Assembly (NCBI GenBank): GCA_017441585.1
Contig: JAFRWW010000043.1
Location: 1-64,000, forward strand
DNA: 64,000 nt
Origin: Lachnospiraceae bacterium
GTDB taxonomy: Bacteria; Bacillota; Clostridia; Lachnospirales; Lachnospiraceae
Direction: 5' to 3'
Under the pieces are notes generated by a model. The model searched no databases. It was not told where the DNA came from and saw nothing but the letters and a program-made list of their open reading frames with translations. Positions 7,813 through 62,953 of the stretch are shown one piece after another. The position numbers and the translations under genes were made by a program. How positions within the stretch are numbered: position 1 is the first letter of the stretch; every line of letters starts with the position of its first letter.

Positions 7813-10365
7813 TCAGTGAGTCTCATACCAGTTACAGCCGATATTGATATCTACCTCCAGAGAGACCGGCAAATCAATAACCCTCGTCATCTCCTTCCTT
7901 ATAATATCGACTGTTATCTCCTTTTCTTCCTCCGGAACCTCTACCAGAAGCTCATCATGGACTTGTAAAAGCACCTGTGATTTAAGGCCGTTATTCTTTA
8001 ATTCTCTTTCAACATTTATCATGGCCATTTTCATGATATCTGCAGCCGTCCCCTGAATGGGAGCATTCATGGCTACACGCTCTCCGAACTGACGCTGCAT
8101 GAAATTACCGCTCTTAAGTTCGGGAACAGGTCTTTTACGACCATACATGGTGGTCACATATCCTTTTTCCTTTGCATTTTTTACCAGTTCATCCAGAAAG
8201 CTTTTTACGCCGGGATATGTGGCAAAATATTTTTCTATATATTCGGCTGCCTCAGATCTGGTAATGGACAGATCCTGACTCAGGCCAAATGAGGAAATAC
8301 CGTATACGATCCCGAAGTTGACCGCCTTTGCATTCCGGCGCATCTGGGGTGTCACCTCATCAAAGGGCACATGGAATACCTGTGACGCAGTGAGAGCATG
8401 TATATCCTGCTGTTGATTATAAGCCTCGATCAGTTTTTCATCTCCGGACATGCACGCCAGGATGCGAAGTTCTATCTGTGAATAATCGGCATCGATGAAC
8501 ACACAGCCTTCTTTAGGTACAAAAACCTTACGAAGCTGCTTGCCCTGCTCGGTCCTGACGGGGATATTCTGCAGATTGGGGTCAGAAGAACTGATACGCC
8601 CTGTGGCTGTGACCGTCTGATTAAAGCTGGTATGTATCCTGCCGTCGGAATCTATATAGTCAAGCAGTCCCACCGCATAGGTGGAATATAGCTTAGACAG
8701 AGCCCTGTATTCCAGGATATCAGCCACTATGGGATTATTGGGAGCCAGCTTCTCAAGAACATCGGCCGCCGTGGAATATCCCGTTTTAGTCTTTTTGCCA
8801 CCCTCAAGGGCCATCTTCTCAAAGAGTATCACTCCCAGCTGTTTGGGAGAATTGATGTTAAACTCCTCTCCCGCCTTCTCATAGATGGCTTTTTCCAACC
8901 TGTCTATACCCACCTTAAGGGAGGCGGCATATTGTTCCAGTTCGTCACGACGCACCAGCACGCCGGTCTTTTCCATCTCATTTAACGTAAAGACCAGAGG
9001 CATCTCCATATCCATATACAGAGACTCCATACCCTCTTCCTTAAGCCTTTCCAGATAAGATGTATATTTTGTCAGGGTTTCCCGTGCGATCTCCCCCGCA
9101 TCCTTTGAATCCGGCATATAATCACCGGAAAGCGGATTCAGAAGATACTCCATGATAGAGACATCATAGAGTCCCTTTCGACGTTTTATATCAAAATATT
9201 TAAGTAAAGGTTTTAACGACCAGGCCGCTACGGTGACATTTTCATCATCAAGCAGATCACAGATCAGCTTATACTCGGGACTTATGATAAAAAGAGCAGT
9301 CAGGGGTATCCTGTACGCCTCTTCCTCGTTCATACATAGACCCAGAGAAACAACTTCACCGTTTTTATCCGTCACCATACTGACACAGGACAGTCCCTTA
9401 TGGGCAGCCATGGCCTCTGTCACGGTCTTTATATCATCAAAAGCCACAATTTCGGTGACCTTACATGCCTTTTTAACAGGGGTTGAGGTCGGGGTATCCG
9501 TCACCTCAAACTTTCTGTAAAGGCTTTTAAGCTCCAGCGAGCGTACAATCTCAAAAGCCGCAGGGGTAAATATATTTTTCATGACGGCATCTTCAGGTTC
9601 ATAAGGGATATCCGCCGTTGTATTTATGGTGGCCAGCACCTTTGACAGCTCAGCCAGTTCAAAATTATCCATAAGTGTCTGCTTAAGAGCCTTTTTCGTG
9701 ATCTCTTCACGATGCTCCTTAAGATTCTCTATGGTGCCGTACTGCCCTATCAGTTCGGTTGCAGTTTTTTCGCCCACCTTGGGCACTCCGGGGATATTAT
9801 CGGAAGAATCTCCCATCAGAGCCTTAAGTTCTATGATGCCAAGAGGCGTCACTTTATACTTTTCCAGTACGTCTTTGGCATAAAAAGAGTCCGTAACGGA
9901 CTTTTTATCCTTAGTATGTGGAAGGCGGATCTTGGTCCTGTCTGTGGCCAGCTGTAACAGATCTCTGTCACCCGAGAGGATACACACCTCGAAGCCGGCA
10001 GCCTCCGCTTTTTTAGCCATGGTCCCTATGAGATCGTCAGCCTCAAGACCCTCCATGGATATGATGGGGATCTCCATGGCTGTGAGCAGATCCTTTACCA
10101 GAGGGACCTGGGCCCTTAGTTCTTCCGGCATGGGCTTTCTGGTGCCCTTATACGCTTCATATATGCCGTGTCTGAAGGTGGGCGCAGAGGTGTCAAAGGC
10201 CACCATTAGATGATCCGGTTTTTCATCCTCTATCACGGACAGTAATATATTTATAAAGCCATATACGGCATTGGTATACTCGCCCTTTGAATTAGTCAAA
10301 GTGGGAACGCCGTAAAACGCTCTGTTTATCATACTGTGTCCGTCTACAAGCAGAATCCTGTTCAT
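7813..10365 (-). CDS. polA: DNA polymerase I
   Basis: An 850-residue family A polymerase. The N-terminal 5'-nuclease domain starts NRILLVDGHSMINRAFYG and carries SGDRDLLQLA and GDSSDNIPGVP. The C-terminal polymerase has motif A DADYSQIELR, motif B RRNAKAVNFGIVYG and motif C LQVHDELLVEVP. In the central 3'-5' exonuclease domain (about 310-480) the catalytic Asp-x-Glu of the Exo I motif is not seen (SCVSMVTDKNG occupies the place), so proofreading is probably lost, as in Bacillus and Thermus enzymes. The ATG at 10365 has AAAGG 8 bp upstream; the open frame extends 23 codons further but without homology. It probably serves Okazaki-fragment maturation and repair. Confidence 0.96.
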   Translation of the reverse strand: MNRILLVDGHSMINRAFYGVPTLTNSKGEYTNAVYGFINILLSVIEDEKPDHLMVAFDTSAPTFRHGIYEAYKGTRKPMPEELRAQVPLVKDLLTAMEIPIISMEGLEADDLIGTMAKKAEAAGFEVCILSGDRDLLQLATDRTKIRLPHTKDKKSVTDSFYAKDVLEKYKVTPLGIIELKALMGDSSDNIPGVPKVGEKTATELIGQYGTIENLKEHREEITKKALKQTLMDNFELAELSKVLATINTTADIPYEPEDAVMKNIFTPAAFEIVRSLELKSLYRKFEVTDTPTSTPVKKACKVTEIVAFDDIKTVTEAMAAHKGLSCVSMVTDKNGEVVSLGLCMNEEEAYRIPLTALFIISPEYKLICDLLDDENVTVAAWSLKPLLKYFDIKRRKGLYDVSIMEYLLNPLSGDYMPDSKDAGEIARETLTKYTSYLERLKEEGMESLYMDMEMPLVFTLNEMEKTGVLVRRDELEQYAASLKVGIDRLEKAIYEKAGEEFNINSPKQLGVILFEKMALEGGKKTKTGYSTAADVLEKLAPNNPIVADILEYRALSKLYSTYAVGLLDYIDSDGRIHTSFNQTVTATGRISSSDPNLQNIPVRTEQGKQLRKVFVPKEGCVFIDADYSQIELRILACMSGDEKLIEAYNQQQDIHALTASQVFHVPFDEVTPQMRRNAKAVNFGIVYGISSFGLSQDLSITRSEAAEYIEKYFATYPGVKSFLDELVKNAKEKGYVTTMYGRKRPVPELKSGNFMQRQFGERVAMNAPIQGTAADIMKMAMINVERELKNNGLKSQVLLQVHDELLVEVPEEEKEITVDIIRKEMTRVIDLPVSLEVDINIGCNWYETH

Positions 10366-51285: not shown

Positions 51286-51314
51286 GGAATATTTTTTCTC
51301 CTTTTTTTATTTAT

Positions 51315-51375
51315 TGATCATTTATTAACCGAACATCTATTATTCGACATCTATTAATCGAAGATCTATTAATCA
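51315..51375. repeat. Short tandem A/T-rich repeats upstream of alaS
   Basis: Four loosely conserved 14-16-bp units of the pattern ATCTATTAATCGA, at about 51315, 51332, 51347 and 51361. They lie in the alaS leader and could be a small regulatory region or slipped DNA. Confidence 0.5.
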
Positions 51376-51419
51376 TTTATTACAATGAGCTTACTCACTT
51401 TGATAATCTTTACCCTCTA

Positions 51420-51547: not shown

Positions 51548-52771
51548 TCAGTAAGAATCCACGAAATCTTCCTCTCCGCCCGAAGCCGTGGCCTCCTGAA
51601 CCGGTGATTCACCGGAATACAAAAGCTTGAGCGCTATGGGCGTCACCAGAGAAGATACGATGATCAAAAGGATGACCGGGGTAAAATACTTCGCCTCCAT
51701 AAGTCCCGCCGACAATCCTTTTTGTGACACGATGAGGGCCACCTCGCCCCTTGTCATCATGCCCACACCTATCTTAAGGGCGTCCTTGTTGTTATATTTA
51801 AACAGTTTTCCTGCCAGACCGCAGCCTATGATCTTTGTGATAAGGGCCACAAACACAAACAGCAGACTGTATACTATCATACTACCGTCTATATGGTCAA
51901 ACTGGGTCTTTATTCCTATGGAAGCAAAAAATATGGGGCCAAAGAACATGTAGGAAGACACATCCATTTTTTCCGCTATATAATCGGAATCCTCTATGGA
52001 GCAAAGGATCACGCCTGCCACAAAGGCGCCGGTGATGTCCGCTATACCGAAAAACTTTTCAGCCACAAAGGCAAGGGCCAGACACACGGCAAGCGAGAAA
52101 ATGGGAAGCCGGCGCATCCTGTGATATCTGTTATCCATCCACTTAAAGGCATGATACAATATCACGCCCACCCCCAGGGCAAACACAAAGAAAAGGACCG
52201 TGTGCATCACCACCGAAGTGGGTTCCACATCCTCCGACACAAAACCGATCACAAAGGTCAGCACTATAATGCCTATGACATCATCGATTATGGCTGCGGA
52301 CATGATCAATGTCCCCACCTTACCGTTAAGATGTCCCAGTTCCTTGAGCACCTGGACCGTGATGGATACGGAGGTAGCCGTCATAATACAGCCGGTGAAC
52401 AGAGCTTTGTAAAACTCCATATCCCCCGGGTGGGAAAAGCCAAAGAAAAAGCTGTGGAGCAGATATCCTCCATACAGCGGCACCGCCACTCCCACACAGG
52501 CTACGAGCAAAGCCTGAGGGCCGGTCTTTATCAGTTTTTTAAGGTTCGTTCCCAGTCCTGCCGAAAACATCAGGAGCACTACTCCGATCTCAGCCATCTG
52601 GGATATGAATTCTTTGGGCTGCACCAGTCCCAAAAGGCAGGGACCGATGAGAATTCCGGCGATAATCTCGCCCGCCACCTCGGGGATCTTGATTTTCTTT
52701 GCGCAAAGCCCGAGAATCTTTGCGGTGATCACGATGATCGCCAGATCATCGAGTATTCTGTAGGTTTCCAT
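51548..52771 (-). CDS. Cation/proton antiporter, CPA2/Kef family
   Basis: A 407-residue protein with about 12 membrane helices. Family features: KIPEVAGEIIAGILIGPCLLGLV, SAGLGTNLKKL, TATSVSITVQVLKEL, SAAIIDDVIGIIVLTFVIGF with the Asp-Asp ion site, and MMTRGEVALIVSQKG. It exchanges Na+ or K+ for protons. There is no C-terminal TrkA-N domain. The ribosome binding site is weak. Two blocks of 106-bp repeats begin about 50 bp upstream of its ATG, between it and the FAD enzyme. Confidence 0.93.
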   Translation of the reverse strand: METYRILDDLAIIVITAKILGLCAKKIKIPEVAGEIIAGILIGPCLLGLVQPKEFISQMAEIGVVLLMFSAGLGTNLKKLIKTGPQALLVACVGVAVPLYGGYLLHSFFFGFSHPGDMEFYKALFTGCIMTATSVSITVQVLKELGHLNGKVGTLIMSAAIIDDVIGIIVLTFVIGFVSEDVEPTSVVMHTVLFFVFALGVGVILYHAFKWMDNRYHRMRRLPIFSLAVCLALAFVAEKFFGIADITGAFVAGVILCSIEDSDYIAEKMDVSSYMFFGPIFFASIGIKTQFDHIDGSMIVYSLLFVFVALITKIIGCGLAGKLFKYNNKDALKIGVGMMTRGEVALIVSQKGLSAGLMEAKYFTPVILLIIVSSLVTPIALKLLYSGESPVQEATASGGEEDFVDSY

Positions 52772-52819: not shown

Positions 52820-53335
52820 GTACGTACGAAATTGCGTTTTTCATTGATTCGTCCGTATCGCATTTTTTCCAATACAGACGAGATTACCTTTTTCACGTTT
52901 TCGTATGTATCATTTCATTCTTTAAATACAGACTAAATTACATTTTTCTTGGTTTCGTCTGTATCGCATTTTTTCCGATACAGACTAGATTACCTTTTTC
53001 ACAGTTTCGTATGTATTATTTCATTCTTTAAATACAGACTAAATTACATTTTTCTTGGTTTCGTCTGTATCGCATTTTTTCCGATACAGACTAGATTACC
53101 TTTTTCACGTTTTCGTATGTATCATTTCATTCTTTAAATACAGACTAAATTACATTTTTCTTGGTTTCGTCTGTATCGCATTTTTTCCGATACAGACGAG
53201 ATTACCTTTTTCACAGTTTCGTCTGTACCATATTTTTCTTCAGATACAGACTAAATTACATTTTTCTTGGTTTCGTCTGTATCGCATTTTTTCCAATACG
53301 GACAAAATTACCATTTCACAGTTTCGTCCGTACCA
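52820..53335. repeat. Hairpin repeat array 1: five 106-bp periods, nine hairpin units
   Basis: The array alternates A and B units of about 53 bp. A has arms TTTCGTCTGTAT and ATACAGACTAGATTACC around CGCATTTTTTCCG; B has arms TTTCGTATGTAT and ATACAGACTAAATTACA around a CATTTCATTCTT loop. Five A and four B hairpins are complete, and half-sites flank both ends (GGTACGTACGAAATT on the left; GTTTCGTCCGTACC on the right). Because 106 is not a multiple of 3, frames shift at each period and long shadow frames result; it is not coding. It fills most of the 592-bp gap between the antiporter and FAD genes. Confidence 0.9.
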
Positions 53336-53363: not shown

Positions 53364-54749
53364 TTACTTGCCCTGCACTCCGGCTATGGTCCTGGCCACG
53401 AATACGCCCGAAGCCGATGCATGGGACAGGGAGTGGGTCACTCCGGAGCCGTCTCCTATCACATACAGTCCGGGATAATTCGTCTCCAGCTGTTCGGTGA
53501 GCTTAACTTCCATGTTATAGAACTTAACTTCCACGCCATACAGCAGGGTATCGTCATTGGCAGTGCCCGGCGCGATCTTATCAAGGGCATGTACCATCTC
53601 GATGATGCCATCCAATATGCGCTTGGGCAGTACCAGGGACAGATCTCCGGGAGTAGCCGCCAGAGTCGGTCTCACCGTACTCTCACGGAGTCTCTTTTCA
53701 TTGGTACGGCGGCCTCTTTCCAGATCGCCGAAGCGCTGTACTATGACTCCGCCTCCCAGCATGTTTGAAAGCCGGGCTATACTCTCGCCGTATCCGTTTG
53801 AATCCTTGAAAGGCTCGGAAAAATGTTTAGCCACCAGCAGGGCGAAATTGGTATTGTCAGTCTTCCTCTGAGGGTCCTCAAAGCTATGTCCGTTCACCGT
53901 CACGATGCCGTTGGTATTTTCATTTACCACGATGCCGTTGGGGTTCATACAGAAGGTACGCACCCTGTCCTCAAACTTTGACGTGCGGTAAACTATTTTA
54001 CTCTCATAGAGCTCATCCGTCAAATGTGAAAAGATAACCGCCGGGAGTTCCACCCTGACGCCTATGTCCACGCGGTTCGAACTGGTAGGGATGGACAGTT
54101 TCTCACACAGGCTCTCCATCCACTTGCTGCCGCTCCTTCCCACGGATATGATACACTTATCCGCCTCCAGAGTATCACCCTCATAGATCACCTTATAGCG
54201 TTTATCTTCGGTCACTTCCACGCTGTCCACGGGAGTGTGAAAAAGGAATTCCACCTTGTCCTTGAGCTGGTCATAGATATTGCCCAGCACCACATAATTC
54301 TTATCAGTGCCCAGGTGTCTCACGGAAGCATCCAGCAATGACAGCTTATTCTGAAGGCAGAGCTTTTTAAAGCCGCTTCCCGCGGTGGAAAACATGTGAG
54401 TTCCTTCACCGCCGTTGGTCATATTGATGCCGTCCACGTACTTCATCAGCTCAATGGCTTCTTCCTTACCTATGTATTCGTACAGGGTACCGCCGAAATC
54501 ATTGGTGATATTGTATTTTCCGTCAGAAAAGGCACCGGCCCCGCCAAAGCCCTTCATTATGGCGCAGGTAGGACACTTAATGCAGCTTTTCACCTTGCCT
54601 GTGTTTATGGGACATTTCCTCTCACTCAAAGGAAAGCCCGCCTCAAACACGGTTATCTTCAAAGAAGGATCCAGCTTTATCAGCTCATATGCCGCAAAGA
54701 TGCCTCCAGGTCCTGCTCCGATTATCGCTATATCAGCTTTTTTCCCCAT
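53364..54749 (-). CDS. Uncharacterised FAD-dependent dehydrogenase
   Basis: A 461-residue flavoprotein. The FAD motif IAIIGAGPGGIFAAYELIKL is at the N-terminus. CPINTGKVKSCIKCPTCAIMKGFGGAGAFSDGK carries four Cys (possible 4Fe-4S or metal site) and an FAD loop. The C-terminus has GLYVIGDGSGVTHSLSHASASGVFVARTI. These match the COG2509-type FAD-dependent dehydrogenases. Substrate not known. It lies between glyQS and array 1. Confidence 0.85.
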   Translation of the reverse strand: MGKKADIAIIGAGPGGIFAAYELIKLDPSLKITVFEAGFPLSERKCPINTGKVKSCIKCPTCAIMKGFGGAGAFSDGKYNITNDFGGTLYEYIGKEEAIELMKYVDGINMTNGGEGTHMFSTAGSGFKKLCLQNKLSLLDASVRHLGTDKNYVVLGNIYDQLKDKVEFLFHTPVDSVEVTEDKRYKVIYEGDTLEADKCIISVGRSGSKWMESLCEKLSIPTSSNRVDIGVRVELPAVIFSHLTDELYESKIVYRTSKFEDRVRTFCMNPNGIVVNENTNGIVTVNGHSFEDPQRKTDNTNFALLVAKHFSEPFKDSNGYGESIARLSNMLGGGVIVQRFGDLERGRRTNEKRLRESTVRPTLAATPGDLSLVLPKRILDGIIEMVHALDKIAPGTANDDTLLYGVEVKFYNMEVKLTEQLETNYPGLYVIGDGSGVTHSLSHASASGVFVARTIAGVQGK

Positions 54750-54767
54750 ACCATACCTCCACTAATA

Positions 54768-54793
54768 AGATTCTTCGCTTCGCTCAGAATGAC
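54768..54793. repeat. Mosaic stem-loop element, minimal form (ATTCT/AGAAT type)
   Basis: AGATTCTTCGCTTCGCTCAG to AATGAC; same core as 24291-24317. It lies in the gap between glyQS and the FAD gene. Confidence 0.75.
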
Positions 54794-54824
54794 AAGATAT
54801 ACTATGAAAATGACAATAATAACA

Positions 54825-54963
54825 ATCATCCTGAGGCTTCATCCGACGCATATCACATCACGAAGTGGTGTGATGCCGCCCTTTTGGTGTCATAAGGAAT
54901 CCACCACTACGTGGTACCCCTTATGACGAATGACGAGGGGTTGCGAAGCAACAGGAAGGATCT
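54825..54963. repeat. Mosaic stem-loop element, long form (ATCCT/AGGAT type)
   Basis: Starts TCATCCTGAGG, ends AGGAAGGATC. Inside are hairpins ATCACATCAC/GTGGTGTGAT (54852-54874), TCATAAGG/CCTTATGA (54890-54897 with 54919-54926) and a GTTGC-type hairpin (about 54940-54952). The stems occupy the same places as in the elements at 4500 and 21481 but with different base pairs. Confidence 0.85.
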
Positions 54964-55021
54964 TTCTTATGCTCTTGCCCTACACAGTCAGTCCATCCCT
55001 TACAGTCTGAATGACCATTAT

Positions 55022-56419
55022 TTAAAACTTAAACTTATCCTCAAAGTAATCCAAAAGATCCGCTATAGCCACTCTCTCCTGCTCCATGGAATCCCTGAAT
55101 CTGACGGTAACCGCGTTATCCGTCTCGGAATCAAAGTCATAGGTCACGCAGAAAGGAGTACCGATCTCATCCTGCCTGCGGTATCTCTTTCCGATATTAC
55201 CCCTGTCGTCAAACTCACAGTTGTACTTGGCAGTGAGCATATCGAACACCTTCTCTGCAGGCTCTGAAAGCTTCTTTGAAAGAGGCAGCACGCCGATCTT
55301 TACGGGCGCCAGAGCGGGATGAAAATGCAGTACCGTACGTACATCGGGAGCCTCTTCGGTTCCTATATTCTCCTCGTCATAGGCTGCGCAAAGGAAAGCA
55401 AGAACCACACGGTCCGCACCCAGTGAAGGCTCGATGACGAAGGGCAGATACTTCTCATTCTTTGTATCATCAAAGTATGTCATATCCTGACCGGATACAT
55501 TCTGATGCTGGGTCAGGTCATAGTCGGTTCTGTCAGCTATGCCCCAGAGCTCGCCCCAGCCAAAGGGGAAGAGGAACTCGATATCCGTGGTAGCCCTGGA
55601 ATAGAAGGACAGCTCTTCCTTCTCATGATCCCTGACTCTCATCTGCTCATCCTTCATGCCCAGGCTCTTGAGCCAGTCGATACAGAACTTTTTCCAATAT
55701 GCAAACCACTCAAGATCGGTATCGGGCTCACAGAAGAACTCCAGCTCCATCTGCTCAAACTCACGGGTCCTGAAGGTAAAGTTACCGGGAGTGATCTCAT
55801 TTCTGAAGGACTTTCCTATCTGACCGATACCAAAGGGTATCTTCTTTCTGGAAGTACGCTGTACATTTTTGAAATTGACAAATATACCCTGGGCCGTCTC
55901 GGGACGAAGGTAAACCGTATTCTTGGCATCCTCCGTCACGCCCTGGAAGGTCTTAAACATCAGGTTAAACTGTCTGATATCGGTAAACTCATGTCCGCCG
56001 CAGGAAGGACAGGGCACGTTGTTGCTCTTAATGAACTCAGCCATCTCCTCCTGTGAGAAAGCATCCACGCTCTTTTCAAGGGTGATACCTTTCTCGGCCG
56101 CATAATCCTCTATTATCTTATCCGCACGGAATCTCTCATGGCACTGCTTGCAGTCCATCAAAGGATCGGAAAAGCTGCCCAGGTGTCCTGATGCCACCCA
56201 GGTCTGGGGATTCATCAGGATAGCACAGTCCACGCCCACATTGTACTTATTCTCCTGGATGAACTTCTGCCACCAGGCCTTCTTTACGTTGTTCTTAAGC
56301 TCCACGCCCAGATTTCCGTAATCCCAGGTATTAGCCAGTCCTCCGTAGATCTCTGAGCCCGGATATACGAACCCTCTTGCCTTTGCCAGCGCGGCGATTT
56401 TCTCCATTGTGTATTCCAT
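55022..56419 (-). CDS. glyQS: Glycyl-tRNA synthetase, single-chain type
   Basis: A 465-residue class II synthetase of the eukaryote/archaea/Gram-positive single-chain type. It starts [23 protein letters not shown], has [45 protein letters not shown], and ends with the anticodon-binding [15 protein letters not shown]. Two Cys pairs are visible: [10 protein letters not shown] and [11 protein letters not shown]. The gene follows an unknown membrane protein gene by 57 bp. A mosaic repeat lies downstream, before the FAD gene. Confidence 0.97.
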
Positions 56420-56475
56420 TTTATTTCTCCTTTCATAATGAAACTTGGGAACCTTCCTTCATTTCATTCTTTGTT

Positions 56476-57255
56476 TCACTCATCTTTCTTTTCAAACAAA
56501 GCTCTTTTATATATAACATAAGCCCTGCCGTCGCCGTCACACACGGCGCTCTTTTTACCGGTCAGGGTCACATTATCACTGTAGTACAAAATTTTACCCG
56601 GGACCTTAAGCTCTGCCCGCTCGCCGGTGACAGCCGCCATGTACCCCTTAATCTCATCCTTCCTGAAAGACAAAAGCTTGCTCCCGTCTTCCTTATAAAA
56701 GGATGCATCCGCACTGATCCCGTATTTTCCAAGATTATCCACGGGACACACGTACAGTTCCTCTCCGTTAAACAGCCTGTAGCTGGCGTCAGAGTCATAT
56801 TCCATCACCAGCCTGGCCCGGCCCTTTGAAACATTCACGTTTTTTAATTTAACCGGCTTCGGTGAAGCTGAGGTAGTCTCAAAGGTCTTTATCTCATCTT
56901 CCACAAAGGACTTAAGCTCATCTTCATTATATCTGCCCTTTTCAAAGTTTTCATTCACCGTAACCTTAAGGGTGTGATCTTTTGCAATGTCAATAAAGGT
57001 TTCGCCTGCATCAGTATCCTCGATGGAGCCATCTCCATCGGCAGCATCCTCGGAAACTGAGAAAGCATCCTTTGAACTGTCCTTGAATATCCCGCCGATA
57101 CCTTTAAAAATGAGTACAATCATCCCTATCAAAAACAGCAGCGCCAGTATATTTAAAATATAAGCCCGAATGATCCGCGCACGCTTTCTCTTATTTTTCC
57201 TGCGGCGCGTCCCTCTGCGGCGTCTTTGTCTGTCCCGATTATCGTATGCGCTCAT
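56476..57255 (-). CDS. Uncharacterised membrane protein with Arg-rich N-terminus
   Basis: A 259-residue protein of unknown family. Residues 1-30 are extremely basic (RQRRRRGTRRRKNKRKRAR), followed by one membrane helix (about 31-52). The outer part has an acidic stretch (about 60-85) and a beta-rich C-terminal domain (about 150-250) with YVCPVDNLGKYGISADASFY. A basic cytoplasmic end and single helix suggest nucleic-acid, lipid or complex binding. It lies between recO and glyQS in the era-recO-x-glyQS run, a common clostridial context. Confidence 0.65.
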   Translation of the reverse strand: MSAYDNRDRQRRRRGTRRRKNKRKRARIIRAYILNILALLFLIGMIVLIFKGIGGIFKDSSKDAFSVSEDAADGDGSIEDTDAGETFIDIAKDHTLKVTVNENFEKGRYNEDELKSFVEDEIKTFETTSASPKPVKLKNVNVSKGRARLVMEYDSDASYRLFNGEELYVCPVDNLGKYGISADASFYKEDGSKLLSFRKDEIKGYMAAVTGERAELKVPGKILYYSDNVTLTGKKSAVCDGDGRAYVIYKRALFEKKDE

Positions 57256-57393
57256 ACGTCCCTTTGTTTCAAAAACTCCCTCTGACAGTTTTCGTGACCG
57301 GTCTCTCTCAAACTGCTTAAAAAACCAATATATTTTAACATAAATGATAAAATTTTACCACACAAACTTTATTATCCCGTATCAGCCTAGAAT

Positions 57394-58053
57394 TCAGGTC
57401 AGGATCATATCCAGGCTGTTGAAATGCCGGCCAATGAAACGCCTGCACAGATCGTCACACAGATCACTGATCTCGGCAAGCACATTATCGCTCACTGAAA
57501 AAGCAAACAGTTTCTTTAAAGGAGCAGTCTCCACATAATATAGAGCATACTCAGCCCCCTCCGAAAGCTTATCCATGTTATCCCTGCCGGGATATTCGCC
57601 GTTCACCATCAGCGTCCTTAATTCAAACACTCGACGGACAAGATTCTGATCCAGCACAGGCTCGGCCCCACAGGTCTTTGTCAGTGCGCGCAGTGACGTG
57701 TACAAAAGCTTAAACATCTCCAGGTCATCATTATTTTCTCTGGTATAATAGTCCGCCACTTCCAGAAAATACATTCCCATGCAGGAAGCCTCAAAGTCAC
57801 TTCTCAGCTTTTCAAAAAACTCACTAACGGCAAAATCCATGAAGGAATAGGCATCCCTGCCGGGAAAAGCCTGGAGCTGTCCATACGAAAAAGGAGAGCA
57901 GGCTGCCAGAAACTTACTGTTCTGACGTCTTACTCCCTTTGCAAAAACTGTTATCTTACCGAAATCCGAAGTCAGCATGACCAGTCGCTTGTCATACTCT
58001 CCCAGATTTGAAGTTTTCAGGACTATCGCCTGTGTTGTTATGAATTGATTCAT
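57394..58053 (-). CDS. recO: DNA repair protein RecO (no zinc finger seen)
   Basis: RecO loads RecA with RecF and RecR. The N-terminal OB domain is clear: TTQAIVLKTSNLGEYDKRLVMLTSDFGKITVFAKGVRR, and a helical part follows (PFSYGQLQAF, FFEKLRSDFEA). At 219 residues it is shorter than most Firmicutes RecO proteins (about 240-255). The usual four-Cys zinc finger in the C-terminal half is missing: the sequence after FELRTLMVNGEYPG has no CxxC pair. It follows era as in many Firmicutes. Confidence 0.93.
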   Translation of the reverse strand: MNQFITTQAIVLKTSNLGEYDKRLVMLTSDFGKITVFAKGVRRQNSKFLAACSPFSYGQLQAFPGRDAYSFMDFAVSEFFEKLRSDFEASCMGMYFLEVADYYTRENNDDLEMFKLLYTSLRALTKTCGAEPVLDQNLVRRVFELRTLMVNGEYPGRDNMDKLSEGAEYALYYVETAPLKKLFAFSVSDNVLAEISDLCDDLCRRFIGRHFNSLDMILT

Positions 58054-58118
58054 TTCATTTATGCCATGCTTTTACTCAGGCCACTAACAATTCCATTTTT
58101 TCAGATGATTTAATCTTT

Positions 58119-58153
58119 CAGAATTCTTCTTCGTTTCACTCCTCGTAAATGAC
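58119..58153. repeat. Degenerate mosaic stem-loop element
   Basis: AGAATTCTTCTTCG to CGTAAATGAC resembles the family in its left end but its right end lacks the matching AGAAT. It lies in the gap between era and recO. Confidence 0.4.
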
Positions 58154-58174
58154 AATAGGTCAAATTATATAATC

Positions 58175-59068
58175 TCACAATTCCTTCTTGTCATATCCAA
58201 AATTCTTAACAAGGTAATCGGAATCCCGCCAGTCCTTTTTCACCTTAACAAAAAGCTTAAGATTCACGTGACAGCCCAGCATACGCTCAATCTGTCCCCT
58301 GGCCCTGATACCGATTTGCTTGAGCATGCTTCCGCCCTTTCCTATGATGATGCCCTTGTGTGAATCGCGCTCACAGATTATGGTGGCTTCAATGGTCACC
58401 AGTTTCGACGTCTCCGTCATGGCATCTATGGCTACGGCTATTCCATGGGGAATCTCATCGGACAGTAAATACAGAGCCGACTCTCTCACCATCTCTGCCG
58501 CGATCTGTTTTTCAGGCTGGTCAGTGACTGTATCTTCATCATAGAAAGGCATCCCCTCAGGCAAATACTCAAATATGGTATTTATAAGTTCTTCCTTATT
58601 TGTCCCTTTAAGCGCGGAAACCGGCACTATCTCGGCAAATTCATGTTCCTTTGAGTAGGCTGCTATGACTCCCAGCACCTCATCTTTTTTTATCTTGTCT
58701 ATCTTGTTGATGATAAGGATCACGGGAGTGTCGGTGTGCTTTAATTTCTCGATGATCTTTTTATCCTCTGGATGGATCTGGTCTCTGGCCTCCACCAGAT
58801 AGAGGATGACGTCCACATCTTTAAGGGTATGCTCTGCCACAGCCACCATGTAATCACCCAGTTTATTCTTTGCCGAATGCATGCCGGGGGTATCCAGAAA
58901 TACTATCTGACCTTTTTCCTCGGTATACACAGTCCTGATCCTGTTCCTCGTAGTCTGAGGCTTCGGCGATGTGATGGCTATCTTCATCCCGATTATATTA
59001 TTCATCAGCGTGGATTTACCCACGTTCGGCCGTCCTATGAGCGCCGCAAATCCCGATTTCTTCATCAT
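58175..59068 (-). CDS. era: GTPase Era
   Basis: Era is a small GTPase that helps mature 16S rRNA and the 30S subunit. G-motifs: G1 GRPNVGKST (12-20), G3 DTPGMH, G4 NKID. The C-terminal KH domain has KGIIIGKGGSMLKQIGIRARGQIE and WRDSDYLVKNFGYD. The length of 297 (or 296 from the second Met) is normal. It heads the run era-recO-membrane protein-glyQS and is preceded by array 2. Confidence 0.97.
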   Translation of the reverse strand: MMKKSGFAALIGRPNVGKSTLMNNIIGMKIAITSPKPQTTRNRIRTVYTEEKGQIVFLDTPGMHSAKNKLGDYMVAVAEHTLKDVDVILYLVEARDQIHPEDKKIIEKLKHTDTPVILIINKIDKIKKDEVLGVIAAYSKEHEFAEIVPVSALKGTNKEELINTIFEYLPEGMPFYDEDTVTDQPEKQIAAEMVRESALYLLSDEIPHGIAVAIDAMTETSKLVTIEATIICERDSHKGIIIGKGGSMLKQIGIRARGQIERMLGCHVNLKLFVKVKKDWRDSDYLVKNFGYDKKEL

Positions 59069-59092: not shown

Positions 59093-59830
59093 ATACCCAC
59101 GAAATTGACTTTTCATTTATTTCGTCCGTATTATTACACATTTTTTATACGTACTAAAACAGTTTTCCTCTGTTTCGTCCGTATGCCTTCATGACACCAT
59201 ACCCACGAAATTGACTTTTCATTTATTTCGTCTGTATTATTCCATATTATTCAGAATTTTTCATACGTACTAAAACAGTTTTCCTCTGTTTCGTCCGTAT
59301 ACCTTCATGACACCATACCTACGAAATTGGCTTTTCATTTATTTCGTCCGTATTATTACACATTTTTTATACGTACTAAAACAGTCTGCCTCTATTTCGT
59401 CCGTATGCCTTCATGACATCATACCTACGAAATTGACTTTTCATTTATTTCGTCCGTATTATTCTTCGTTTTTTATACGAACCAGATCAGTTTTCCTCTG
59501 TTTCGTCCGTATGCCTTCATGACATCATACCTACGAAATTGGTTTTTCATTTATTTCGTCCGTATTATTACACATTTTTTATACGTACTAAAACAGTCTG
59601 CCTCTGTTTCGTCCGTATGCCTTCATGACACCATACCTACGAAATTGGCTTTTCATTTATTTCGTCCGTATTATTACACATTTTTTATACGTACTAAAAC
59701 AGTCTGCCTCTGTTTCGTCCGTATGCCTTCATGACATCATACCTACGAAATTGGCTTTTCATTTATTTCGTCCGTATTATTACACATTTTTTATACGTAC
59801 TAAAACAGTTTCCCTCTATTTCGTCCGTAT
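59093..59830. repeat. Hairpin repeat array 2: seven 106-bp periods
   Basis: Seven A hairpins (arms TTTCGTCCGTAT and ATACGTACTAAAA around TATTACACATTTTT) alternate with six complete B hairpins (arms TTTCGTCCGTAT and CATACCTACGAAATTG around GCCTTCATGACA), with half-sites at both ends. Units differ by a few substitutions; one A unit at about 59220-59270 is longer by about 9 bp and the one at about 59450 has a changed arm. The array fills most of the 852-bp gap between era and the peptidase gene; 59831-59920 holds only A/T-rich sequence without a gene. Arms match array 1. Confidence 0.9.
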
Positions 59831-59920: not shown

Positions 59921-62900
59921 CTAAAACAGATTCTTAACTTCCTTAAACTTATCCTTACACTCTTCCACCTTATTCTCAGAGCCGATGACGCACAGATACC
60001 CCTGGTCGATCACCGCCTTAAGATAAGCCGAAAGTCCCCTGATGGTATTGACATCACAGGAGAGTACCTCATCCCTTTCCTTCTGGACGAACTCATCAGT
60101 TATGCCCTGGAGGAACATGCCGCGGCTCCGGTCGGCCTGCATATGGGGCGTGCGGGGAACATCAGTCTCGGATATGGTCCCTATAATAAACTTCCTCATA
60201 TCCCTGTCAGACACATCAAAGCCCAGCACATAATCAAAGGCCTCTTTATATACTTCCAGCGTGCGGTCCAGATTCGGATCACGGTATGAAACAAAGTCAA
60301 GGTATCCGAAACAGTTAACCTTGAACATGCCTCCGTAAGCACCGCCTAAAAGCCTTACATTCTTCCATAGATACTCATAGGACATAATGGACTTAAGCAC
60401 CTTAAGAGCGCCGTTATACTTAAAGCCCGCAGCCATATAATCTCCGCCCATGGCCACATACTGCACCTGGGAAGCGCACTTGAAGCCTTCATTCAAAGCT
60501 CCCAGCGCCTTTCTGCACTCGGCCTTCACAGGCTTCTCATCGAAAAGCTCTGCCGCAAAATCAGCTATCTTTCCCTTTAACTCCTCATACGCCTGTCTGC
60601 TGCCGCCAAAGTCCACCAGCAGATTGGCCTTGAGATAGGTGAGTTTCAGCACCTCCCTTAGTTTCTTCGATATTTCCTCTTTCTTGTTATCAAAATCGGC
60701 CAGAAGTTCATCCACAAATCTGTAATACTCAAACCCGCTTATGGCATCGGAAAATGCGGATACGCCGTGATAATAGGAATCCATCCTGCCCACAGCGAAT
60801 GAATGTCCCGCAGACATCATAGCCATCTGGAAGCGGCTCTTTGTCATCATCAGAATTTCCCTGATGCGGTCATGCTCCTCCAGTTTTTCCCTGAAAAGGA
60901 TCTCCTTAGCCATCCTGATCACAAAGTCCAGTTTGTCATACAGATATGAAGCCTCCAGCACCAGATATGAAGTAAATTCCTGGGAACCCACCTTTCTGTA
61001 TGGCGACACGTTGACGCTCATGCCGCCGGTCTGTGCATTAATCTCATTGGTCAGCTCAAAATATGAATAATTCTCCGTGGAGATCAGCCCCATCAGGCTC
61101 TTCAAAAGTCCCACATAACCGTGATACTCGGCAGGCACATTAGCCATCTCAAACATGATATTCAGATATCCTATACCGTTTGAATCCACCTCATGAAACA
61201 GATATCTGATACCGTCCTCCTCGGAGTATTCATTGCAGGAAGGCTTTATCTTCTTATCAATATCTGCTATCTCCAAAAGAGGTATAGTCAAAAGTTCTTC
61301 CTGGGTGGAAGGCTCCTCCTGATACTTTTTAAGCGCCACCGTATCTGCGGCAATGGCCTTAACCTCATCCTCACTTAAAGACTGTCTGTACGCTTCCAGC
61401 TTATCGGCCAGTTTCTTATCATTTATATCCGTAAGGCCCCTGACCGGCTTAGCTATCACGAAGGCACAGTGCTTATTATCCAAGATATACTTTCTGATCA
61501 GCTGCTCAAAATATCCGGTATCGATCTGACCCTTAAGGAACTCTATGGTGCTGACGGCACTTATGTGCATAAAGGGGTCAGACTCATCATAGAGCCAGCT
61601 GTCAAGACACTGTAGACCATACATCAATCCCTTGGGATAAGACCCGAAATCCGCCTCACGATACTTGAATTCAAAATAGTTTATGCCGGCTTCCAGAGCC
61701 TTTTTATTAAGGCCTTCGGCGCAAAGATTTTCCAGAGTATCCCTCACCAGGCCGATAAAACGGTCCTTATCTTCATATTTTGCATTTTTGACGGTTATGG
61801 AAAAGGTGGGCTGATATATGCTGTTTTCATATCCACCCATGACATCGGCGCCGATGCCTTCCTTTATGAGCTTATCCTTAAGAGGCGCTCCGGGAGCGGA
61901 CAAAAGCGTATAGTCCAGTATCTGGAAAGCGAGGTAAAGATTGCGGTCCAGCACCGTATCCACCACATATCCCAGATCAAAATAAGTATTGTTTTCTACA
62001 GGCTCCTCCGCGGAAATACCATACTCCATCTCCACCGTCTTCATCTCATCAAAAGGCTGCTGGAATTTTATATCCGTCGCCGGATCTATGCGGTCATATT
62101 TTGACAGATACTCCTGATCCAGCCAGTCAAGACGCTCCGCCATATCACAGTTTCCGTACAGGTAGATATAGGAATTCGATGGATGATAATAGCGCTTATG
62201 AAAAGCGATAAAGTCCTCATATGACAGGGAAGGTATATCCTGCGGATCTCCGCCGGAATCATTGGCATAGCAGGTATCGGGATAAAGAGTCTGCATGGCC
62301 TTTCTGCCTATGACCTCATCCGGTGAGGAATATGCTCCCTTCATCTCATTGTAGACCACGCCGTTTATCGTGATCTCACTGTCTCCGGAAGCTTTATCAG
62401 CCATCTCGGACAGTGCTGCCTTGAGAGCCTCACAATCATGTGATTTTTCGCATGTATCACAGGCGGTTCCATCTTCGGTGTCGCAGGATATGCCGTTAAT
62501 ATCCATCCCGCCTTCCACCTCGTAATGCCAGCCCTCCTGCTTAAAGATCTGGGGCCTGTCATAGATATTTGGATGAAATACGGCGTCCATATACACGTCG
62601 CAAAGATTCTTAAAATCCTTGTCATTGCAGCTGGCCACAGGATATACGGTCTTGTCCGGATATGTCATGGCATTCAGAAAAGTGTTAAGGGAGCCCTTTG
62701 CCAGCTCCACAAAAGGATCCTTGGGGGGATACTTCTTCGAACCGCAGAGCACGGAATGCTCCATTATATGCGGAACGCCCCTGCTGTCCTGGGGCGGAGT
62801 CCTGAAGCCGATATAAAAAACCTTGTTATCATCTTCATTTTCCAGCACAAAGATCCTGGCGCCGGTCTTTTTGTGAGACAAAAGGTAACCGGTACTCTTT

Positions 62901-62953
62901 AACTCCTCCACTTCTCTTTTTTCTTTCAGTTCATATTTTTCACTTATATTCAT
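59921..62953 (-). CDS. M16C-family zinc metallopeptidase (PreP-like)
   Basis: A 1010-residue peptidase of the presequence-protease type. The inverted zinc motif HIMEH is at residues 62-66 (H62, E65, H66), followed by the helix ELAKGSLNTFLNAMTYPDKTVYPVAS. The four M16 modules are present in one chain, with a Glu-rich linker near the middle. An insertion at about 155-185 holds five Cys (CDTEDGTACDTCEKSHDC) that I would not expect in this family. It has no signal peptide, so it is probably cytosolic and degrades peptides. Confidence 0.93.
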   Translation of the reverse strand: MNISEKYELKEKREVEELKSTGYLLSHKKTGARIFVLENEDDNKVFYIGFRTPPQDSRGVPHIMEHSVLCGSKKYPPKDPFVELAKGSLNTFLNAMTYPDKTVYPVASCNDKDFKNLCDVYMDAVFHPNIYDRPQIFKQEGWHYEVEGGMDINGISCDTEDGTACDTCEKSHDCEALKAALSEMADKASGDSEITINGVVYNEMKGAYSSPDEVIGRKAMQTLYPDTCYANDSGGDPQDIPSLSYEDFIAFHKRYYHPSNSYIYLYGNCDMAERLDWLDQEYLSKYDRIDPATDIKFQQPFDEMKTVEMEYGISAEEPVENNTYFDLGYVVDTVLDRNLYLAFQILDYTLLSAPGAPLKDKLIKEGIGADVMGGYENSIYQPTFSITVKNAKYEDKDRFIGLVRDTLENLCAEGLNKKALEAGINYFEFKYREADFGSYPKGLMYGLQCLDSWLYDESDPFMHISAVSTIEFLKGQIDTGYFEQLIRKYILDNKHCAFVIAKPVRGLTDINDKKLADKLEAYRQSLSEDEVKAIAADTVALKKYQEEPSTQEELLTIPLLEIADIDKKIKPSCNEYSEEDGIRYLFHEVDSNGIGYLNIMFEMANVPAEYHGYVGLLKSLMGLISTENYSYFELTNEINAQTGGMSVNVSPYRKVGSQEFTSYLVLEASYLYDKLDFVIRMAKEILFREKLEEHDRIREILMMTKSRFQMAMMSAGHSFAVGRMDSYYHGVSAFSDAISGFEYYRFVDELLADFDNKKEEISKKLREVLKLTYLKANLLVDFGGSRQAYEELKGKIADFAAELFDEKPVKAECRKALGALNEGFKCASQVQYVAMGGDYMAAGFKYNGALKVLKSIMSYEYLWKNVRLLGGAYGGMFKVNCFGYLDFVSYRDPNLDRTLEVYKEAFDYVLGFDVSDRDMRKFIIGTISETDVPRTPHMQADRSRGMFLQGITDEFVQKERDEVLSCDVNTIRGLSAYLKAVIDQGYLCVIGSENKVEECKDKFKEVKNLF

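Follow-up and report, generated by a model that had tools for sequence, protein, structure and literature searches.

Helix-spaced tandem arrays linked to a nuclease-like gene: a possible new system of protein and arrays in Lachnospiraceae and other Clostridia

We describe a family of tandem arrays that is scattered over the genome of a Lachnospiraceae bacterium. Inverted motifs of the same helix-spaced kind also lie just upstream of a widespread, uncharacterized nuclease-like gene, and we take this as a sign of a so far undescribed system of protein and arrays in Lachnospiraceae and the Clostridia related to them. The window analyzed here is a stretch of 64,000 nucleotides (contig JAFRWW010000043.1, positions 1 to 64,000, of assembly GCA_017441585.1) from a MAG of 2.7 Mb that is 85% complete (G000), and it contains two of these arrays. 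In our reading, the arrays probably form the DNA side of a two-part system not described before, whose other half is a PD-(D/E)XK-type protein of about 270 amino acids that is predicted to bind them cooperatively. If this is true, about a third of Lachnospiraceae genomes, which belong to major gut and rumen bacteria, would encode an unrecognized nuclease-like protein that defines its own landing arrays. The numerous natural variants, in each of which half-site and spacing can be read directly, would offer a test bed for co-evolving DNA-binding specificity and helical phasing, and the system could be a regulatory, selfish or defense module of a new type.

The two arrays of the window (Table 1) have a common architecture. 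In array 2, half-sites L (TTTCGTCCGTAT on the + strand) alternate with inverted half-sites R (ATACSTACKAAA-like on the + strand) in units of 53 bp, two of which form a 106-bp repeat; in array 1, L reads TTTCGTCTGTAT or TTTCGTATGTAT and R reads ATACAGACTAAA. Read unit by unit, the basic unit is ~53 bp and not 106 bp, with L (TTTCGTCCGTAY) and inverted R (RTACRGACKATT) alternating every 26-27 bp. The 106 bp correspond to a two-unit higher-order repeat that is present in most arrays of the window's genus, where a period of 105-106 bp arises because spacers of ~14 and ~15 bp alternate. The R-to-L linker is pyrimidine-rich on the + strand, often with T5, and the purine-rich strand of array 2 is the - strand, which is the sense strand of the flanking genes. 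With up to one mismatch allowed, the window contains 31 copies of the motif TTTCGTCYGTAT, versus 0.45 expected from shuffled sequences. A sequence-only reading of this DNA had described the two arrays as sharing a 106-bp period and a left arm while differing in their right arms, as lying 5.8 kb apart with minus-strand neighbors on each, and as related through the left edge of array 1, which resembles a unit of array 2; the analysis agrees with it on each of these points. Its claim of a common origin is also supported, the half-sites and unit architecture being common to ~13 further arrays in G000.

Table 1. Positions in the window of the two arrays and the neighboring genes
Feature	Position	Strand	Details
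Cation/proton antiporter-like gene	51548-52771	-	Downstream of array 1; context, outside the proposed system; sequence inspection
Array 1	52820-53333	-	TRF period 106 (call at 52829-53327), 92% match, score 809; about 9.5 units
FAD enzyme, glyS, hypothetical, recO, era	53364-59068	-	Supposed block; syntenic in G002 without arrays
Array 2	59093-59830	-	TRF period 106 (call at 59241-59830), 91% match, score 996
Irregular unit of array 2	59226-59300	none	L-to-L distance of 63 bp (59226-59289) versus 53 bp, i.e., one helical turn more
M16-type peptidase gene	59921-62953	-	Upstream of array 2; context; sequence inspection

About 15 arrays with inverted half-sites of the form TACRGAC/GTCYGTA and a 52-53 bp unit are scattered over G000. 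A scan of GTDB (84,980 species) found such an array in ~14 species, all of them gut Lachnospiraceae or Clostridiales MAGs apart from a few unrelated chance matches. Among 397 sampled Lachnospiraceae genomes, the array occurs in G000 and in one other genus, and two further species of the window's genus have none of these arrays. Different genera have some array sites in common, which lie beside rlmH, fba, dprA-topA and a permease gene. At one site, G000 carries ~6.5 units where its sister species (G002, whose Era is 96% identical) has just one R-linker-L element of 38 bp, and this difference at the same site suggests that the 38-bp sequence is the minimal element, from which arrays would grow in tandem. 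Two contig ends of G000 (C45:1-436 and C69:19191-19545) carry near-identical arrays with the same flank that differ at one or a few bases; these are probably strain variants of one locus, i.e., array polymorphism in the population. IMG/VR contained neither an array with the half-site motif nor a relative of the ~270-aa protein, and a phage origin was rejected on these grounds. Rfam gave no match near the arrays. A reading as CsrA-like sites (ANGGA) was dropped because many units read ACAGAC. A CRISPR array was likewise rejected: the spacers are homogenized rather than unique, and no cas genes were recognized in the flanks examined.

The distance between half-sites hardly varies, with 25 bp from L to R and 28 bp from R to L in nearly all units of ten genomes, 26 and 28 bp in two, and 26-27 bp in the window's genus. 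The spacer sequence itself (13-16 bp between half-sites) is about as similar between genomes as shuffled sequence is (0.31 versus 0.30). Half-sites and spacing are therefore constrained, and spacer sequence is free. Similarity is higher among the arrays of one genome (0.41 versus 0.30), some spacers being related, and inside an array the 13-15 bp spacers are homogenized (identity 0.72). Judged by gene context, array orientation is locked to transcription or replication; the purine-rich strand is the sense strand in all 31 of the 31 arrays that lie between co-directional genes. Spacing irregularities inside GTCCGTA arrays showed no significant phasing.

The linked gene encodes a protein of ~270 aa. 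In G206 (RUG12564; 100% complete), a 270-aa copy lies between two GTCCGTA-type arrays, and arrays of this type adjoin the gene in G206, G424, G425, G430 and G002. The members scanned match no Pfam family at the curated cut-off and no NCBIfam family. Across 36 homologs, the C-terminal half carries SKSE, PDF and EHxG motifs that are invariant or nearly so, with H/G replacing the usual K of PD-(D/E)XK. The main PADLOC match of this half is to the C-terminal domain of the defense candidate PDC-S68 (E about 1e-28 to 1e-29). Other PDDEXK models of PADLOC match as well, and for PDC-S68 and HEAT_CxxC_PDDEXK together the E values span 1e-28 to 1e-8. AlphaFold, run on the single sequence only, gave a pLDDT of 37, and this model was set aside. 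Homologs are present in 124 of the 397 sampled Lachnospiraceae genomes and in several other Clostridia families, with up to 7 copies per genome; in several array-positive MAGs the nuclease-like gene was not found. Other homologs are accompanied by arrays with different arms, e.g., CTACGTA, AACCGTA, GATGCTTT, GTGACCGC and CCCAC. In G206, tandem copies (40-45 bp) of the beginning of the reading frame (MNTNTYK-like) lie between the large upstream array and the gene (C5, ~7957-8330). The same PDDEXK-type domain also occurs in large, PDC-S68-like open frames of Clostridia (about 650-1100 aa; e.g., G565:C12, G594:C4 and G707:C12).

In the window's own species, we found only a 58-aa C-terminal remnant of the gene (C25:283-420), close to the G002 copy, which has itself lost the nuclease core through an in-frame deletion but continues to adjoin an array. 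The gene appears lost or unassembled in this species, whose arrays may therefore now be orphans; an intact copy may also lie in the unassembled 15% of the genome. At the expected array position upstream of the remnant (C25:500-700), there is a short tandem repeat of ~14 bp (GTCATTCAAAGA...).

Arrays lie upstream of the gene far more often than downstream. The first set comprised 87 genes flanked on either side by 400 bp or more; a tandem array, defined as a TRF repeat with a period of 40-130 bp, lay upstream of 59 of them and downstream of 10. A second set, mostly from other families, gave 14/44 versus 2/44, and clustering at 50% protein identity left 34/69 versus 9/69. Background DNA contained 18 such repeats in 800 kb. 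TRF detected no array at about one gene in three in the first set and two in three in the second. The upstream periods cluster at 42-44, 52-55, 62-64, 73-75 and 83-85 bp. Of 83 such periods, 75 are no more than 1.5 bp away from a multiple of 10.5 bp, versus ~24 expected. When each 50%-identity cluster was represented by a single gene, a Rayleigh test on the periods gave p = 3e-9; clustering at 45% gave 1.6e-3, the held-out second set, unused in forming the idea, 4e-4, and control repeats 0.58. Unit lengths that change by whole turns point to double-stranded DNA with protein on one helix face, and they count against a purely RNA-level role. More specifically, this pattern in the repeat periods points to cooperative DNA binding by the ~270-aa protein as the predicted partner.

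Among 84 consensus units, 42 carried perfectly matching inverted arms of 7 bp or more, versus 10 of 420 shuffles, and in 74% of the units with such arms one of the two distances between arms is 28-34 bp and the other varies with the period. Arms are shared between homologs with an identity of 55% or higher (permutation p = 0.0002), and over all pairs there is a weak trend (p = 0.08); a trio of homologs has the common arm GATGCTTT with periods of 62, 62 and 73 bp. The purine-rich strand of gene-linked arrays is the sense strand of the gene in 63 of 84 cases.

We propose that the ~270-aa protein couples a putative N-terminal DNA-binding region to its C-terminal PD-(D/E)XK-type nuclease domain, and that its dimers would bind inverted half-sites about 30-32 bp, or three helical turns, apart. 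With a whole number of helical turns from one tandem element to the next, neighboring dimers would be placed on one DNA face, where cooperative binding is possible. The founding array would be the one just upstream of the gene, and binding there would most likely regulate the gene or load or store the protein. Additional arrays, built from the same half-sites and dispersed between genes, would provide extra landing sites; these would gain and lose tandem units and differ in presence from one sister species to another, as arrays 1 and 2 do. We infer from these patterns that the protein binds the arrays, regulates in cis there and possibly drives array turnover through its nuclease; the role of the system could be self-regulation, array spread or defense. 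It is an evenly balanced call whether the model extends to an undescribed class in which each fast-diversifying PD-(D/E)XK protein would have its own helical-turn array (4 to 8 turns), with the protein on one DNA face and arrays escaping genome-wide. Counting against the proposed system, arrays persist in G000 and in G002, which have only the remnant and the coreless copy, with half-sites not visibly more decayed than elsewhere, and a sequence link between arms and protein is seen only above 55% identity.

Several known arrangements share parts of this design. In cooperative operator and iteron arrays, repeated, helically phased half-sites precede the gene of the protein that binds them. The present arrays resemble them in having helically phased half-sites upstream of the gene for a protein proposed to bind them, but the partner here has a putative nuclease domain, arms differ between homologs and arrays occur genome-wide. 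MIRU/BOX-type elements, like the arrays described here, are tandem repeats that lie in the intergenic regions of co-directional genes, favor one orientation and vary in copy number; to our knowledge, they have no cognate DNA-binding or nuclease gene and no helical-turn quantization of their units. The PADLOC defense candidates PDC-S68 and HEAT_CxxC_PDDEXK have the same C-terminal PDDEXK-type domain, but PDC-S68 proteins are ~1200 aa long and the small array-linked protein has only the nuclease domain in common with them. A literature search with the half-site string returned only primer-like chance matches, and the open-access papers searched contained no description of a system combining these features. 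Among known systems, REPIN-RAYT and type III toxin-antitoxin systems follow the most similar logic.

The arrays could instead spread selfishly, with the nuclease cutting or nicking its own half-sites and thereby driving array amplification and gene conversion into new intergenic sites in a homing- or REPIN-RAYT-like manner. Dispersal, turnover between G000 and G002, the single minimal element facing 6.5 units at one site, the partial relatedness of spacers within a genome and the multiple gene copies all fit such a process. We nonetheless consider it unlikely: no target-site duplication or insertion mechanism is apparent, most arrays of one genome are not recent mutual copies, and some sites are common to different genera, which implies long residence.

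A type III-like toxin-antitoxin system, in which the upstream array would yield a repeat RNA antitoxin and the dispersed arrays co-transcribed extra antitoxin RNAs, seems to us quite improbable. Type III systems (ToxIN, CptIN and TenpIN; PMC4627078, PMC6315513) also have a tandem array directly 5' of a nuclease gene and are common in Firmicutes, with ToxIN/CptIN known in Eubacterium rectale (PMC4627078). The frequent upstream position of our arrays, in 59/87 and 14/44 genes, and the sense-strand bias of both linked and dispersed arrays would suit this reading. However, the unit lengths follow DNA helical turns, which a single-stranded RNA does not need, and arm covariation as a sign of RNA structure showed no excess over independence except at one position with a lineage effect. 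Moreover, arrays are dispersed without the gene and sometimes antisense, as is the large upstream array of G206; the putative PD-(D/E)XK-like nuclease domain appears unlike the ToxN fold, and there is no match to a pseudoknot RNA family.

It is highly improbable that the arrays are REP/BIME-like elements moved by a RAYT (Y1) transposase. REPIN-RAYT systems (PMC3116915, PMC3733652) likewise form a within-genome population of dispersed, intergenic, palindromic repeats with an enzyme gene flanked by the same repeats, and some carriers have RAYT-family matches. Their enzyme is a Y1 tyrosine transposase, however, whereas the linked gene here encodes a PD-(D/E)XK-like protein, and G206, complete and array-positive, has no Y1 transposase (RAYT, PF01797). 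Their repeats are short hairpins, while here half-sites 13-25 bp apart form long tandem arrays with helical-turn units. REP sequences are GTAG/CGTC-tagged hairpins of 20-40 bp with short loops (4-5 bp in CGTC repeats; PMC3733652); the present arms are 7-12 bp long with 13-16 bp between them.

That the two arrays bound a mobile or amplifiable gene block, as the sequence-only reading had proposed, has next to no chance of being right, since, although they do flank the genes from FAD enzyme to era in G000, a check for arrays elsewhere found ~15 at unrelated places in that genome and G002 is collinear and array-free. In G002, the M16 peptidase gene, era and recO follow in the same order with a gap of ~24 bp between the first two, and on the same contig the FAD enzyme gene is followed by the antiporter gene after ~230 bp; neither junction contains an array. 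To judge from this synteny, the 53.3-59.1 kb interval is ordinary core genome that lies by chance between two members of a dispersed family. The FAD enzyme adjoining array 1 has two copies in G002 (C163 and C164). A different dispersed intergenic repeat (GATTCTTCGCTTCGCTCAGAATGACA type) is found near the FAD enzyme gene at 54765-54965 of the window and at another junction in G002, between era and recO, and a 15/29-bp tandem repeat that bears no relation to the arrays lies upstream of alaS at 51308-51382.
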